In this document: one piece after another, positions 15,504 to 34,986 of the stretch
Position numbering within the stretch: position 1 is the stretch's first letter
Layout of the letters: each line of letters opens with the position of its first letter
Assembly (NCBI GenBank): GCA_026184775.1
Contig: JANCYW010000011.1
Span: forward strand, 348,591 to 412,590
Length of the DNA stretch: 64,000 bases
Source of the DNA: Cyanidium caldarium
Taxonomy: Eukaryota; Rhodophyta; Bangiophyceae; Cyanidiales; Cyanidiaceae
Direction: 5' to 3'
The notes under the pieces: model-generated
Told to the model about the DNA's origin: nothing
The model's database searches: none
What the model saw: only the letters and a program-made list of their open reading frames with translations
Translations under genes and position numbers: made by a program

Positions 15504-16303
15504 AGGCAGCGAGACGCGTAGAGCGTGTGCGAGGGCGGCTGAAGCCAGGGAACCGGGAACCCGGGCACCGGTGGAGGAGTTGAAAGCGGGCGCACGCCTG
15601 CCCCAGAGAGAACTTGTGCGACTCGTTGGGAGGACAGACCACCCGAAGGACGACTTTGTAACACCCTCGCGGGAGGCACGCTGAACGGGTCAGCAGACCG
15701 GAAACGGGTGCGCGTCCCCGAAAACGTCGACGAATGCAACGGACGCCCAGGACGGTGGGCGCGATGCGAGAATCGCCAGGCAGGCGTCACGCGGTGCAGG
15801 GAGAGGGGACACGGCGGATCGCTAGAGAACGTGAGCCACGTCCGCGGGTTGCAGAGTACGTTCTGTTGCTGGCGTTTATCACGGGGCCAGGCTGTCTTCA
15901 AGAACGATGCCCCCGCAGCAGGGACAAGAGAGATCGTGTACTCCAAGTTTCCAAAGTCTCACGCACCCCCACCTGACCACCCGTATCCTTCTCACACCGA
16001 CTCACTCCTCTGGCATGCCCGCGGCGAGCCCCTCGATATGCCAACACCCGCTCCAGCGGATCGCCCACCGCAGTTTCCGCCTCCAGACGCTGACGATGGG
16101 CGCCAGCTCGGCCGCGCTCGTTCTCCGCATCGCACGTTGTCTGGTGCACACTTCTTCCCGGTCAAAGGCCGTCGCCACCACGAAACACTCCCTTATAGGC
16201 GTCTGGGGAGAATCGGGGCCGGCCTCAACCCATCCACCGCCCGGATCCCGCCTCTCCGCCCTTGCTGCCCGCTCGCCTCTCGCTCCCTCGCCGCCCGACA
16301 GCC
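15504..16303. other. Longest unexplained spacer, divergent promoter for ACLB
   Basis: Eight hundred bases between two divergent genes. Open frames here have no recognisable content and several lack ATG starts. Near ACLB the plus strand is pyrimidine-rich (15950-16015). No RNA gene could be folded convincingly by eye. A non-coding RNA or a poorly conserved small gene cannot be excluded. Confidence 0.4.
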
Positions 16304-18241
16304 ATGGCGCTCTTCTCGCGAGACAGCCAAGCGGTGTTTTTCAATTACAAAGCGTCTCCCGTGCAGCGCATGCTCGATTTCGACTATGCCTGCTACCGAG
16401 ACACGCCCTCGGTGGCGTGTGTGGTGACGCCCGGGGCGCCGCGTGGCGGTTTCCGCAAGGCGTTCTTCGGGCAGCGCGAGCTGGCGCTGCCCGAGTACGG
16501 CAGCATCGGCGAGGCGTGTGCGGCGCACCCGGGTGCGGATGTGTTTCTGAACTATGCATCGTATCGGTCGGCATTTGCATCGTCTATGCAAGCGCTGCAG
16601 ACCGATACCATTCGGGTGGTGGTGATCATCGCCGAGGGCGTGCCCGAGCGCGACACCAAGCGGCTCATCGCGGCGGCCGCTGCGGGCGGCAAGATCATCA
16701 TCGGTCCGGCCACCGTCGGTGCCATCCAAGCCGGGGCGTTCAAAGTGGGCGATGCCGCCGGCACCCTGGAGAATATCCTGCAGTGCCGGTTGCACCGGGC
16801 GGGCTCGGTGGGGTTCGTGTCCAAATCCGGCGGCCTCTCCAACGAGATGTATCACGTGTTGTCGCGCGTCACCGACGGCATATACGAGGGTGTCGCGGTC
16901 GGCGGGGACACGTACCCAGGCAGCACCCTGGCTGACCACGTGTTGCGCTTCCAGCGCATCCCGCAGGTGAAGTTGGTGGTGCTGCTGGGCGAGCTGGGCG
17001 GCACCGACGAGTTGCAGGTGGCTGCGGCGATGCGGGACGGGCGGGTGCACAAGCCGCTGGTGGCGTGGGTGAGCGGCACCTGTGCCACGCGCTTTCACGC
17101 CGCCGAGGTGCAGTTTGGGCATGCGGGCGCCAAATCGGAGGCGGACCGGGCGGACGAATCGGCGGCGGCCAAGAATCGGCTGCTGCGAGAAGCGGGCGCG
17201 CTGGTGCCCACCAGTTTCGAGACGCTGCCGGCGTTGGTCGGCGACGCCTTTCGCAAGTTGCAGCTACCGCCGGTGCCCGAACGCGAACCGCGGGCGCTAC
17301 CGATGGACTTTCACGCCGCGGTGCAGACGGGTCAGCTGCGCAAGGCCACCAACATGGTGTGCACCGTGTCAGACGACCGCGGCGAGGAAGTCACATATGC
17401 CGGCACGCCCATGAGCACACTGATCGCCGAGCAGTACGGTATCGGCGACGTGATCTCGTTGTTGTGGTTCAAGCGGCGGCTGCCGCCGTGGGCGGTGCGC
17501 TTCATCGAAATGTGCATCGTGGTGGCCGCCGATCACGGACCGTGCGTCAGCGGCGCGCACAACGCCATCGTGGCGGCGCGCGCCGGCAAGGACGTGGTGT
17601 CGAGTCTGTGCTCGGGCCTGCTGACCATCGGGCCGCGTTTTGGCGGCGCCATCGACGACGCCGCGCTGAACTTCATGCGCGGTGCCGATGAGCACATTCC
17701 GCCCGACGAATTCGTCGAGTCGATGAAGCGCGCGGGCCGGCGGGTGGAGGGCATCGGGCACCGCATCAAGTCGGCCGAATGTCGGGACAGTCGGGTGGAG
17801 CTGTTGTCGGCGTACGCGCATCAGCGCTTTCCCTCCACGCGGTATTTGGAGTATGCGCAGCAGGTGGAGGCGTACACGCTGCAAAAATCCACCAATTTGG
17901 TGCTGAACATCGACGGATGCATCGGGGCGCTGTTCGCGGATTTACTCAGCGGCGCCGCCGACACCCTGTTCGACGGTGCGCACCTGGATGAGCACGAGCG
18001 CAGCCAGGCGGTGCGCTCCATTATCGAACTCGGAGCGCTCAACGGGCTGTTCGTGGTGGCGCGGTCGATCGGGCTGATCGGACACGTGATCGACCAGCGC
18101 CGGATGAAGCAGCCGCTGTATCGGCATCCGTGGGATGACGTGTTGTACGCGCAAGATGATCTGGCGCCGACGCTGCGCCGCCAGCCCAGCATGATCGGTG
18201 CGGCGGCGAATGCGCCGGCGGGGAAGCGCGTCGACGGTTGA
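16304..18241 (+). CDS. ACLB: ATP-citrate lyase subunit B
   Basis: A 645-residue subunit matching the C-terminal part of animal ACLY: CoA ligase-type domains followed by a citrate synthase homology module. With subunit A it converts citrate, CoA and ATP to acetyl-CoA and oxaloacetate in the cytosol. The phosphohistidine loop is visible as QFGHAGA (His near residue 271), preceded by the CoA-ligase motif VGFVSKSGGLSNEMY. The citrate synthase-like end carries DHGPCVSGAHN near 410 and GIGHRIKS near 485. The frame opens upstream on TTG; the ATG at 16304 (MALFSRDSQAV) gives the usual N-terminus. It is slightly longer than plant ACLB, with the extra residues at the C-terminus. The ACLA partner lies at 33.2 kb. 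Confidence 0.95.
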   Translation: MALFSRDSQAVFFNYKASPVQRMLDFDYACYRDTPSVACVVTPGAPRGGFRKAFFGQRELALPEYGSIGEACAAHPGADVFLNYASYRSAFASSMQALQTDTIRVVVIIAEGVPERDTKRLIAAAAAGGKIIIGPATVGAIQAGAFKVGDAAGTLENILQCRLHRAGSVGFVSKSGGLSNEMYHVLSRVTDGIYEGVAVGGDTYPGSTLADHVLRFQRIPQVKLVVLLGELGGTDELQVAAAMRDGRVHKPLVAWVSGTCATRFHAAEVQFGHAGAKSEADRADESAAAKNRLLREAGALVPTSFETLPALVGDAFRKLQLPPVPEREPRALPMDFHAAVQTGQLRKATNMVCTVSDDRGEEVTYAGTPMSTLIAEQYGIGDVISLLWFKRRLPPWAVRFIEMCIVVAADHGPCVSGAHNAIVAARAGKDVVSSLCSGLLTIGPRFGGAIDDAALNFMRGADEHIPPDEFVESMKRAGRRVEGIGHRIKSAECRDSRVELLSAYAHQRFPSTRYLEYAQQVEAYTLQKSTNLVLNIDGCIGALFADLLSGAADTLFDGAHLDEHERSQAVRSIIELGALNGLFVVARSIGLIGHVIDQRRMKQPLYRHPWDDVLYAQDDLAPTLRRQPSMIGAAANAPAGKRVDG

Positions 18242-31195: not shown

Positions 31196-32821
31196 CTAGC
31201 GTGCCTCGGGCTGCTCGGCGTTGGTGGCGCGGGCCCGTTGCGAACGCAGATATCCCCACAGCACTTGATCCGCCTGCTGCAACACCGCCGCCATCGAGGC
31301 ACCTGCGGTACGTTGTGCCATTCTCTCCGCCCACGCTGCATCGACCGTCGGCACGCCCGCCCGCTGCATGGCCGATACACGATCGAGCAGTGCCTCGCGA
31401 CGGGCGGCAGCGCCCGGCGCCCGCACCTCCAAATGCAACTCCAGACGTCCCGGCCGCAGCACTGCCCGATCGATGCGTTGCCGCACCTCGGTCGCCGCCA
31501 CCACCAGAATGCGTGAGCGGCGCCCGCGCCCCGAGTGAAACCCGTCCAACGCCTGCAACACCACGCTGAGGATGCGGTCGTGCACGCCGGAGGCACGGTC
31601 GGCGGTGCGCGCCGGCACCAACGCTTCGAGGTGGTCGAAAAAGAGCACACACTCGCGTAGCGCGTGCGCCAATTCGAACACTTGGTGGATGGCCTGCTCG
31701 GCCTCGCCCACCACCGCCGACACGATCTCGGCCGCATCCACACACAGCACATTGGCGGCAGGTATTGCACCGGTTGCGGCGGTGTTGCAAGGGTGGGCTA
31801 GCGCCTCGGCCAGGATCGACTTGCCGTTGCCCGACGGGCCGTACAACAGCACGCCGAACACTGCCGGTGATGCGGAGGCGTCGGTGTCGCGTAGGCCGGC
31901 CGTCAGGCGACACAGCGTCGCATAGTGCTGGCGCGTCGTCTCACCGTATAGGCGCGGCGGGGTGCGCGCGCCGCTCGGGCGCCACCACAGCACCCGGCTG
32001 CCGCGCAACACCGAGGGCGCTTCCAAGTGCGGAAGCAGGGCGGCCGGCTCGACGATCTTGCCATGGCGCTGGCACATGCGGGCCAGGCGGCGGGCGGCGT
32101 CGCGCAGATCCGCAAAACTGTAGCCGGCAGTGGCGTCGGCCAGCCACGTCGGTTGTTGCAGGGTGGCCAGGTAGGCGTGCCGCGATTCCCATCGAGGCAA
32201 CGGCACCTGCATTGCCCGTTCGCAGAGCGGCACACGATAGCCAGCGGTGGCTATCGCCAGGCACCGGTGACCGTCCGGTGCGCTGCTCGACGTCCACCGC
32301 AACACGGATGCCAATGTCTGCTGCAGTCGCAAGCGGATGTCGTCCGCTCGCGCCATCAGCGCCGCCTCCGCCGCCCGCGCCCGCGCTTCGTCACTGAGCG
32401 GGACGTCGTAGTCGCTCTCGGCGGCGTCCACCATTGCAGCATCCTCCGCGGCGGATCCGCGCAGCACGCCGCCTGTCGGCGCTTCCGCGAACACGGCCTC
32501 CACCTCGTCCAAGATGACCACATCGGCTCGCGCATCCTGCACAGCCGCACACAACAGACGCTCCGCTTCGCCCGGCGCGCGCCCCAGTATGTCATTCGCG
32601 CACGACACCAGCTGGTGCGACAGACCGCGCGCCCGGCACGCCTGCCGCGCCAGTTCGGTCTTGCCGCAGCCGCGCGCTCCGTACAGCAGCAGGCAGCGGT
32701 CCGCCAGGGTTGTCCACGGGGTGTCGTCCGCTCGCCCGGACGCCGCCAACCATTCGCACACTCGCCGATACTCGTCCGTCGCCACAAACCACCAAGGCGG
32801 TGCTGCCTGTCCCTGCGTCAT
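31196..32821 (-). CDS. Divergent two-domain AAA ATPase (PEX1-like?)
   Basis: A 541-residue protein made almost entirely of two AAA modules. The first has Walker A YGARGCGKTEL near residue 50 and Walker B VVILDEVEAVF. The second has Walker A YGPSGNGKSIL and Walker B VLFFDHLEALVPAR, where the catalytic Glu of DE is replaced by His. It then has ASGVHDRILSVVLQALDG and RAVLRPGRLELHLEV, including arginine-finger positions. The GVxDRI...LxxLDG spacing is closer to PEX1 than to CDC48/AFG2, so it may be the peroxisomal import-receptor ATPase subunit. It lacks the large N-domain of those families. ATG start at 32821. Confidence 0.7.
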   Translation of the reverse strand: MTQGQAAPPWWFVATDEYRRVCEWLAASGRADDTPWTTLADRCLLLYGARGCGKTELARQACRARGLSHQLVSCANDILGRAPGEAERLLCAAVQDARADVVILDEVEAVFAEAPTGGVLRGSAAEDAAMVDAAESDYDVPLSDEARARAAEAALMARADDIRLRLQQTLASVLRWTSSSAPDGHRCLAIATAGYRVPLCERAMQVPLPRWESRHAYLATLQQPTWLADATAGYSFADLRDAARRLARMCQRHGKIVEPAALLPHLEAPSVLRGSRVLWWRPSGARTPPRLYGETTRQHYATLCRLTAGLRDTDASASPAVFGVLLYGPSGNGKSILAEALAHPCNTAATGAIPAANVLCVDAAEIVSAVVGEAEQAIHQVFELAHALRECVLFFDHLEALVPARTADRASGVHDRILSVVLQALDGFHSGRGRRSRILVVAATEVRQRIDRAVLRPGRLELHLEVRAPGAAARREALLDRVSAMQRAGVPTVDAAWAERMAQRTAGASMAAVLQQADQVLWGYLRSQRARATNAEQPEAR

Positions 32822-33151
32822 GAGAGGGTGGAGGAGACTGTCCAGCTGCGACCGAGCTTCAGGCGCAGCGTCGTCCAGATCACCGCCGACACTTTTGAGG
32901 CGGCATCAGACCGCACTCCTTTCCAGCAGGCAACGCTCGCCGTGATCTCATTGACTTTGTTCACGCCGCAACCGGGGAATCTCTGTGCCTTCTGCGCCTG
33001 CCCGCACACGCTTCCGTCGGCCCCCCGTCGGTCGGGCGCGGTCGCCCAGCGCGTGCGGACCCGCGTCGAGCGCCGAGCAAGCGCTTCCGGCGTGGAGCCT
33101 CTCCACAGGTTCTTTGTGGGTGGGATACGCACCCCTCCACCAGAGCGCGTC
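32822..33151. other. Divergent promoter of the AAA gene and ACLA
   Basis: No gene or RNA recognised. The ACLA frame stays open through it but with no conserved protein content and no suitable ATG. Confidence 0.4.
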
Positions 33152-34531
33152 ATGGCGCGGAAGAAGATCCGCGAGTACGACGCCAAGCGGTTGCTGTGCC
33201 ACCACTTGAAACGCCACCTGATGGCGATGCAGGCGACGAGCAGCACGCGGCTGGCCGATGCGGCCCATGAGCACGACTGGCTGGCGCGCTGCCGCCTGGT
33301 GGTGAAACCGGATATGTTGTTCGGCAAGCGCGGCAAGCACAATCTGGTGGCGCTGAACGTGGATGTGGACGGCGCACAGCGTTTCCTGACGCAGCTGCTG
33401 CACGAGCGCGGGGAGGTGGAGGTGGGCGGGGTGCGCGGCACCGTGACCACCTGTCTGGTGGAGCCGTTCATTCCACACCAAGTGGAATACTATCTCAGTA
33501 TTCGGAGCGTGCGCGAGGGCAATGAGGTGCGCTTCAGCTGCTACGGCGGCATGGACGTGGAGGAGCGCTGGGAGGATGGGCGCCGGCAGTTGGTGCGGCC
33601 GGGCGAGCGATATACCGCGGCGGAGGCGTTGGCGCTGGTGCGGGATGAGCCTGACGCCGGCCGCCGGGAGAAGCTGGCGTCGTTCGTGGCGGAGTGTTTC
33701 GCGGTGTATGACGATCTGGATTTCACCCTGATGGAGATGAATCCGCTCACCGTTGCGGTACCGCCGATGTCGCTGGCGATGGAGGGCGCCGCAAACGCCG
33801 ACGGCCTCGCCGAGACGGTGCTGCCGCTGGATATGCGCGGCGAGCTGGACTCGTATGCCGCGTTCCAGAACGCGCGCAAGTGGTTGAATGTGGAGTTCCC
33901 GGAGGCGTGGGGTCGGCAAAAGTGGCCGCAAGAGCGTGCAGTGGCCGAGCTGGACGAGAAATCCAGCGCCTCGCTCAAGCTGACCATTCTGAATCCCCGT
34001 GGGCGCATCTGGACCATGGTGGCCGGCGGCGGCGCCTCGGTCATCTACAGCGACACCGTGGTCGATTTGGGGTATGGCGACGAGCTGGGCAATTATGCCG
34101 AGTACAGCGGTAACCCGAAACCGGAGGAGACGTACCTGTTCGCGCGCGAGCTGCTCGACCTGGTCACGCACGAGCCCGACGGGCGACCGCGTTGTCTGCT
34201 CGTCGGCGGCGGCATCGCCAACTTCACCGACGTGGCTGCCACCTTTAGCGGCATCCTGCAGGCGATGAAGGATTTCGCCGGCAAGCTGCAGATGGCCAAA
34301 GTGAAGGTGTTCGTGCGCCGCGGCGGACCCAACTACAAGACCGGTCTGCGGCTGATGGAGGAACTCGGCGCCGAACTGGGCATCCCCATGGAAGTGTACG
34401 GACCGCAAGTCAACATGACCGCCATTGTGACCATGGGCATCGAGTGGATCGCCCACGGGCCGCCGCCGGGCTCGCCGGCGGTGGTATCGCCACACCATCG
34501 CCGTAGCGCAGCCGTGGAGAATGGCGTGTGA
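33152..34531 (+). CDS. ACLA: ATP-citrate lyase subunit A
   Basis: A 459-residue subunit corresponding to the N-terminal part of animal ACLY, working with the ACLB at 16.3 kb. The ATP-grasp part begins MARKKIREYDAKRLL and includes VKPDMLFGKRGKHNLV, VEPFIPHQVEYYLSI and FTLMEMNPLTV. The citrate-binding half contains IWTMVAGGGASVIYSDTV, ELGNYAEYSGNP, LVGGGIANFTDVAATF and FVRRGGPNYKTGLRLM. The frame is open for another 1.1 kb upstream across the AAA gene, but that part is antisense noise. The ATG at 33152 gives the family N-terminus. It is ~35 residues longer than plant ACLA, the extra residues being a weakly conserved C-terminal tail. Confidence 0.96.
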   Translation: MARKKIREYDAKRLLCHHLKRHLMAMQATSSTRLADAAHEHDWLARCRLVVKPDMLFGKRGKHNLVALNVDVDGAQRFLTQLLHERGEVEVGGVRGTVTTCLVEPFIPHQVEYYLSIRSVREGNEVRFSCYGGMDVEERWEDGRRQLVRPGERYTAAEALALVRDEPDAGRREKLASFVAECFAVYDDLDFTLMEMNPLTVAVPPMSLAMEGAANADGLAETVLPLDMRGELDSYAAFQNARKWLNVEFPEAWGRQKWPQERAVAELDEKSSASLKLTILNPRGRIWTMVAGGGASVIYSDTVVDLGYGDELGNYAEYSGNPKPEETYLFARELLDLVTHEPDGRPRCLLVGGGIANFTDVAATFSGILQAMKDFAGKLQMAKVKVFVRRGGPNYKTGLRLMEELGAELGIPMEVYGPQVNMTAIVTMGIEWIAHGPPPGSPAVVSPHHRRSAAVENGV

Positions 34532-34732
34532 AGCGAATCGGGAGAGACACGGGCGGCCTGTGGCACGCTGCCTGTTCTTGTCCACGATACCCCCCTGCTA
34601 AAACACCCCTGCAGTCCGTCCCACATCGGTTCCCCCCTCCCGCTGACCCACGTGCGTTCCGGGGCGCTTCAAATAGCGATTTCGGCGCACGCGCTCCCAC
34701 GCAGCGCGCCCGATTCGCTTCTCTCTCTCTCC
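34532..34732. other. ACLA 3' flank and tRNA 5' flank
   Basis: Short spacer before the tRNA. A CT-repeat (34720-34731) lies directly before the acceptor stem. No protein gene seen. Confidence 0.4.
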
Positions 34733-34835
34733 GGTGCCATGGCCGAGCGGTCCAAGGCGGTGCACTCAAGATGCACTGGGCGCAAGCCCTCACGCGTTCG
34801 AATGAAAGTAGGTGACGAGAATCGCGTTGGCACCA
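34733..34835 (+). tRNA. tRNA-Leu(CAA) with an intron in the T-loop
   Basis: A class II tRNA. The acceptor 5' strand GGTGCCA (34733-34739) pairs with TGGCACC (34828-34834), and the discriminator is A at 34835, as in tRNA-Leu. The D arm is GCC ... GGC. The anticodon stem GTGCA/TGCAC encloses a normal 7-base loop with anticodon CAA at 34767-34769, so there is no intron at the usual 37/38 site. The long variable arm is GGGC-GCAA-GCCC. The T stem ACGCG (34792-34796) pairs with CGCGT (34823-34827), but the loop holds TTCGAAT plus 19 extra bases. Removing one 19-base intron restores a perfect 7-base T-loop. A box TGGCCGAGCGG is intact. CCA is not encoded. Confidence 0.92.
34804..34822 (+). other. 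Ectopic 19-nt intron within the tRNA T-arm
   Basis: One placement of the insert. A GAAT direct repeat (34800-34803 and 34819-34822) flanks it, so the exact boundary is ambiguous by up to 4 bases. It also separates the last bases of the internal B-box promoter. Removal presumably needs a tRNA splicing endonuclease acting outside the anticodon loop, as described for C. merolae tRNAs. Confidence 0.8.
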
Positions 34836-34850
34836 TGTACAGGGCGTGTG

Positions 34851-34855
34851 TTTTT
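34851..34855 (+). terminator. RNA polymerase III T-run terminator
   Basis: A run of five T begins 16 bases after the tRNA discriminator base, the expected Pol III stop signal. It supports plus-strand transcription of the disrupted tRNA. Confidence 0.7.
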
Positions 34856-34986
34856 GGCGAAGCGGGTGCATCCTCTGCGGTGTCGGCACCGAGGGGCGGA
34901 TTCGCCGCGGACGGTGGCGATCGGCACGGACCGGGCGGACGCCACTCCGGACGTTCCGACGACGAATCGTCCATACCTCCCAGCCT

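Follow-up and report, generated by a model that had tools for sequence, protein, structure and literature searches.

Both introns outside the anticodon loop and circularly permuted genes have been described for the nuclear tRNAs of the red alga Cyanidioschyzon merolae, a point made in an earlier note on the DNA studied here and with which two articles agree (PMC3978253; PMC9602550). The C. merolae tRNA-Ile(UAU) gene carries three introns, at 12/13, 37/38 and 53/54. Excision of those in the D- and T-arms is believed to precede that of the anticodon intron, Pus4 cannot modify U55 while the T-arm intron remains, and processing intermediates of this T-arm-intron tRNA have been detected by RT-PCR (PMC9602550). 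A 13 nt intron interrupts C. merolae tRNA-Gly(CCC) at 55/56, and the Ala-UGC, Arg-CCU and Lys-UUU genes are permuted at 59/60 (PMC3978253, Table 1), the same permutation junction as in the Tyr and initiator Met genes of Thermofilum pendens (PMC3218864). A duplication-and-loss model has been put forward for permuted tRNA genes, and C. merolae is reported to encode Sen2, Sen34 and Sen54, whereas a Sen15 gene is not apparent (PMC3978253). The bulge-helix-bulge (BHB) motif consists of 3-nt bulges and a 4-nt helix (PMC6379350).

As T-arm introns and 59/60 junctions are published for C. merolae, the phenomenon itself is already known. The earlier note had supposed that the isoacceptor and the site described below may be new. 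For the site this is only partly right: T-arm introns at 53/54 and 55/56 and the 59/60 permutation junction are on record, while the literature matches listed, whose scope excluded the primary C. merolae gene table (Soma et al. 2013), contained no 59/60 cis intron in tRNA-Leu(CAA) of Cyanidium. Nor did these matches include a paper about introns in the nuclear tRNAs of Cyanidium caldarium.

We analyzed a 64,000 nt stretch (the window; G+C 0.635–0.689 along its length) of the genome assembly of the hot-spring red alga C. caldarium, which has 20 contigs and totals 8,787,356 bases. On the plus strand, positions 34733–34835 hold a complete class II tRNA-Leu(CAA) gene, and its sole defect is the presence of 19 extra bases in the T-loop (Table 1). 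The acceptor stem (GGTGCCA/TGGCACC, 7 bp), D-stem (GCC/GGC) and T-stem (ACGCG/CGCGT, 5 bp) are paired, the variable arm is long, and the T-loop consists of TTCGAAT plus the 19 nt. The discriminator A73 is at 34835, and CCA is not encoded. The 5′ half precedes the 3′ half, which is the normal gene order and not that of a type IV circular permutation. The upstream neighbor is an ORF with ATP-citrate lyase domains ending about 200 bp before the tRNA gene; domains of the two parts of this enzyme are found in two ORFs, at 16262–18238 and 32027–34528 of the window, about 14–15 kb apart.

In a sensitive cmscan of 34650–34900, the gene matched RF00005 with 42.7 bits (gathering threshold 29; E = 3.9e-08), and the alignment covered all model positions 1–71 with the extra bases falling in the T-loop. 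When 19 nt were deleted at each of 86 positions, ARAGORN called tRNA-Leu(caa) at 11 of them, all in the T-arm region (offsets 65–75). Both the cmscan alignment and this deletion test place the insert outside the canonical 37/38 site, and the anticodon loop CTCAAGA is unbroken. The class II tRNA-Leu(CAA) with a 19-nt T-loop insert, the uninterrupted anticodon loop, the GAAT direct repeat across the insert boundaries and the T5 after the gene were all features claimed in the earlier note, and each is borne out. That the tRNA-Leu(CAA) of this Cyanidium-type red alga has an ectopic intron in its T-loop is well supported. Standard tRNA annotation can overlook such genes: neither ARAGORN nor cmscan at the gathering threshold found any tRNA in the window, ARAGORN made no call on the unspliced gene, and RF00005 searched against the whole genome (E ≤ 10) missed it as well, presumably because the filters of these fast searches reject the interrupted T-loop.

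Table 1. Features of the tRNA-Leu(CAA) locus (window coordinates)
Feature	Position	Strand	Description and basis
TATA-like element, weak	34666..34677	+	GCTTCAAATAGC; 67 nt upstream of the gene; matrix score 8.2
Exon 1, tRNA-Leu(CAA)	34733..34802	+	Acceptor 5′ strand through A59 of the T-loop; sequence, Rfam, ARAGORN
Anticodon CAA	34767-34769	+	Inside loop CTCAAGA
Predicted central helix (H, 4 bp), exon strand UUCG	34797..34800	+	Positions 54-57, followed by AAU; helix enumeration, T-arm folding
Intron, 19 nt, 59/60 register	34803..34821	+	UGAAAGUAGGUGACGAGAA; four further registers allowed by sequence alone
CGAG, predicted intron strand of the central helix	34816..34819	+	Followed by 3-nt bulge AAU with putative 3′ splice site AA|U; helix enumeration, T-arm folding
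Exon 2	34822..34835	+	U60, T-stem 3′ strand CGCGU, acceptor 3′ strand UGGCACC, A73
T5, likely RNA polymerase III terminator	34851..34855	+	15 nt between gene and T5; sequence

We consider it probable, at roughly 0.86, that this is a working, apparently single-copy nuclear tRNA-Leu(CAA) gene whose intron is predicted to be excised at 59/60 via a relaxed hBH motif. As GAAT is present at both boundaries of the insert, five splice registers, from 56/57 to 60/61, are possible, and all of them lead to an identical mature sequence. We enumerated every 4-bp helix with two 3-nt bulges that can be placed on the T-arm and found four. The 59/60 placement has the most outer pairs (5, with the T-stem as outer helix) and restores the mature T-arm with exactly 19 nt excised. 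Its UUCG/CGAG helix forms 4/4 pairs, one being U-G. The 3′ bulge AAU is 3 nt long, the 5′ AAU sits in a loop, and the directly adjacent inner helix has 0 bp, which makes this a relaxed hBH form in which the 5′ site lies in a loop and not in a true bulge; an offset 2-bp inner helix turned up in T-arm folding. The splicing endonuclease cuts after the second bulge nucleotide, and AA|U cuts on both sides yield TTCGAAT and the 19-nt intron.

Random 19-nt inserts gave a comparable solution, with an outer helix of at least 2 bp and the mature arm restored, in 1.0–1.5% of trials. Shuffling the letters of the insert produced the helix at the exact register in 1083 of 20000 cases (5.4%), a rate that makes the central helix alone weak evidence. 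For the isolated T-arm at 37°C, the fold with the central helix and the 2-bp inner helix tied with a rival UUC/GAA fold containing one bulged U (−6.7 kcal/mol each), and the bare BHB fold reached −5.8 kcal/mol. The central-helix fold was best at 45°C (−5.2 vs −5.0 for the rival), and the probabilities of its pairs were 0.37–0.43 at 37°C and 0.43–0.51 at 45°C. The minimum-energy fold of the 104-nt precursor contained the rival pairs and no BHB helix. The folding z-scores were −1.48 for this 104-mer and −2.14 for the spliced tRNA. Given the tied folds and the rival pairs in the whole precursor, folding by itself is not decisive. Folding the junctions for a BHB, a check proposed in the earlier note, gave a positive result for the relaxed hBH form at 59/60, alongside a rival fold of equal energy; of the two bulges of the strict hBHBh′ form, the 3′ one is present and the 5′ AAU falls in a loop.

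The same intron might instead be excised in another register that GAAT allows, such as 60/61 or 57/58, through a motif other than the 59/60 hBH. All five registers would give the identical mature tRNA, the CGTT/GACG placement at 57/58 offers a 2-bp inner helix and restores the mature arm, and the competing UUC/GAA fold appears in both the precursor and the T-arm foldings. We regard this alternative as improbable, since the outer helix has 0 bp at 57/58 against 5 bp at 59/60, and since 59/60 is the junction common to the permuted Lys and Ala genes of this genome and to the published type IV genes.

In these permuted-looking Lys(UUU) and Ala(UGC) genes, the break is at 59/60, and the 3′ halves give 5/5 T-stem pairs and 7/7 acceptor pairs in both, the listing for Ala(UGC) also holding several weaker chance candidates. 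The 3′ halves come after CGAA-TTC (Lys) and CGAG-CTT (Ala). UUCG can pair fully with both, where the chance of full pairing of a random 4-mer at one site is 4.2% at 67% GC, and a 3-nt bulge precedes the T-stem in both genes, like in Leu(CAA). A direct repeat like GAAT is absent from the Lys and Ala junctions, indicating that the motif does not include it. The Arg(CCU) gene, too, appears to be permuted at 59/60 and to carry an intron in the D-arm, and its helix pairs 3/4; this gene was read by eye, as the scripted search misplaced the 5′ end and gave no good 3′ half among its rows. If the Lys and Ala genes are the working ones of the cell, the 59/60 motif must function. The comparison inside the genome thus supports a 59/60 intron in Leu(CAA).

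Permuted-looking genes were seen at L014, L020, L023, L018 and L024, namely Lys(UUU), Ala(UGC) and Arg(CCU) at 59/60, initiator Met at 50/51 and Leu(CAG) at 37/38. These permutation types are the same as those given for C. merolae in PMC3978253, and the split of Cyanidium and Cyanidioschyzon is placed at about 0.3 billion years ago in PMC13353863. Thus, the five permutations may be older than the split of the two genera, if they are permutations as they appear.

In total, 32 tRNA loci including Leu(CAA) were recognized in the genome. The T-arm is contiguous in 26, counting Gly(UCC) (L005), whose T-arm was read separately as the script gave no row for it, and interrupted in six: permuted Lys, Ala and Arg (59/60), permuted initiator Met (50/51, by eye), Ile(UAU) and Leu(CAA). 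This census is incomplete: disrupted genes escape the patterns and filters, several of the anticodons are unassigned or were assigned by eye, and duplicate loci of one gene were dropped first. One possible reading of the Ile(UAU) gene (L092, 1–451, minus strand) has introns in the D-arm (12/13), the anticodon loop (37/38) and the T-arm (53/54), as in the C. merolae gene; its T-stem still pairs 4/5 when unspliced. A probable D-arm intron near 12/13 was seen in Val(AAC) (L015), the 5′ end of which, GCAGACG, lies further upstream than the start of the Rfam match. An intact class II tRNA with the anticodon GAG, by eye Leu(GAG), was found at L009, and a Leu(GAG) tRNA is unusual for a eukaryote. Its T-loop (TTCGAAT) and 3′ T-stem (CGCGT) match those of Leu(CAA) and contain no insert.

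Several patterns were also searched genome-wide. The 59/60 T-loop intron pattern, which requires TTCR, YGAR and a nearby T5 and misses other forms, gave 14 rows at 11 distinct places, with 7 for the control pattern. A T-stem of at least 4 bp was present in 4 of the 14 rows, and the 7-bp acceptor partner as well was found at Leu(CAA) only. An intact T-arm with T5 gave 41 rows at 29 distinct places (control, 4). Inspection of 14 stretches (13 of the 29 places and one from the 59/60 pattern) identified seven as tRNA-like; 15 of the remaining 16 places were loci already recognized, and C1:448935 was left out. The class I D-arm pattern hit 21 places compared with 77 for the control; three known tRNA loci (L011, L015 and L078) and one new locus (L092) were among them, and 17 of the 21 places were left out of inspection.

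The earlier note had also proposed a search for another intact tRNA-Leu(CAA), and none was found in the genome. The DNA search with the gene at E ≤ 10 returned only the self-match, and this search is insensitive: permuted Leu(CAG) has the same 19-nt A box as Leu(CAA) yet is absent from the results. The class II A-box pattern with up to 3 mismatches occurred at 331 places (346 for the control), and its perfect matches were Leu(CAA) and permuted Leu(CAG) only. With a shorter A-box form and up to 2 mismatches, 11 places were obtained vs 15 for the control, the only perfect match being Leu(GAG). Six imperfect A-box matches were checked by eye, none of which was tRNA-like. The gene is apparently single-copy with respect to these patterns, which a diverged or disrupted copy could escape. 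UUG accounts for 229 of 1162 Leu codons in 14 ORFs of the window, which were chosen by eye from the 62 listed; some of them start with a spurious N-terminal extension. UUG could also be read through wobble by a Leu(UAA) tRNA, which is not among the loci located here.

As for expression signals, 24 of the other 31 tRNA loci recognized in the genome served to train the matrix for the TATA-like element. Among 3000 stretches of 110 nt drawn at random from the window, 2.4% reached a score of at least 8.2, and five of the 24 training loci fell below 8.2 in a leave-one-out analysis. Compared with the standard consensus, the B box is nearly whole. The earlier note held that the insert splits the 3′ end of this box and perhaps affects Pol III recruitment; the damage turned out to be small, as GTTCGAAT is contiguous and just the last two box positions are altered by the insert. 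The motif GTCCAAGTT, possibly a promoter element, recurs near or upstream of parts of three tRNA loci (L011, L020 and L023).

Genes for the splicing machinery were searched by homology. PF01974 had two matches, one (L054) closest in sequence to Sen34 and the other (L055) to an EndA-like chain and then to Sen2. The Sen54 N-terminus PF12928 (L091) and RtcB (L084) are also present. A putative splicing endonuclease and ligase, assigned by homology, are thus encoded. The Trl1-type ligase domain PF09511 had no match in the genome and the control was likewise without a match, hence its absence is unproven.

Could the gene be dead, inactivated by a short insertion that may have duplicated a 4-bp target (GAAT)? 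The direct repeat flanking the insert and the failure of standard annotation tools would fit. We judge this very unlikely, since all stems are intact, no other Leu(CAA) was found in the above searches and UUG codons are common; the terminator and the weak TATA-like element persist, the insert has a BHB-compatible helix, and splicing genes are encoded. A pseudogene arising by target-site duplication was judged unlikely. We give hardly any credence to an assembly or sequencing artefact, or to a mature tRNA retaining the enlarged T-loop, since a complex 19-nt insert able to form a splice motif is atypical of sequencing errors, the other T-arm-interrupted tRNAs of the same assembly fit the published C. 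merolae positions, and a 26-nt T-loop would disrupt the D-loop/T-loop elbow.

In the favored model of excision at 59/60, RNA polymerase III would transcribe the gene from the weak TATA-like element and the internal boxes and stop at the T5. In the precursor, the 4-bp helix formed by exon UUCG (54–57) with intron CGAG would extend the T-stem. AAU would then form the 3-nt 3′ bulge, and the 5′ site AA|U would fall in the loop; this relaxed hBH is one of the two tied folds. From the genes present and from C. merolae, we infer that AA|U would be cleaved on either side by a Sen2/Sen34 endonuclease and that RtcB would join A59 to U60, restoring TTCGAAT. The spliced mature T-arm would read TTCGAATCGCG, and the mature tRNA would read UUG codons.

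These results suggest that C. merolae is not the only cyanidiophycean alga with T-loop introns, and that a single BHB-like motif at 59/60 can serve intron removal and permutation within one genome. It is possible, if rather doubtful, that the Leu(CAA) 59/60 intron corresponds, in cis order, to the type IV permutations, with the same endonuclease motif and junction serving both (in Arg with a weaker helix). If 59/60 introns came first, Leu(CAA) would have kept the intron-bearing state that the duplication-and-loss model requires as a precursor of type IV genes. The proposed precursors of permuted tRNA genes would then become testable in a small, culturable alga.

We compared the locus with four known systems from the literature. 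In C. merolae Ile(UAU) and Gly(CCC), too, the T-arm of a cyanidiophycean nuclear tRNA is interrupted by a short cis intron with BHB-type junctions; here, the site is 59/60, the tRNA is Leu(CAA) with a single intron and normal gene order, and the alga is a different one. Type IV permuted genes share the 59/60 junction and, at Lys and Ala of this genome, the helix of UUCG with CGA(A or G) and the 3-nt bulge. In contrast, Leu(CAA) keeps its halves in the normal order, and what separates them is an intron and not joined acceptor ends. Non-canonical introns of Crenarchaeota also occur in the T-loop and at other sites, adopt relaxed hBH or BHL forms and are cleaved by Sen-family enzymes (PMC6379350), whereas Leu(CAA) is a eukaryotic nuclear gene in a genome encoding eukaryotic-type Sen2-, Sen34- and Sen54-like proteins. 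The nucleomorph of Guillardia theta provides another eukaryotic case of ectopic introns outside 37/38 (PMC3978253); many of those introns lack a defined BHB, whereas that of Leu(CAA) can form a 4-bp helix with a 3-nt bulge.
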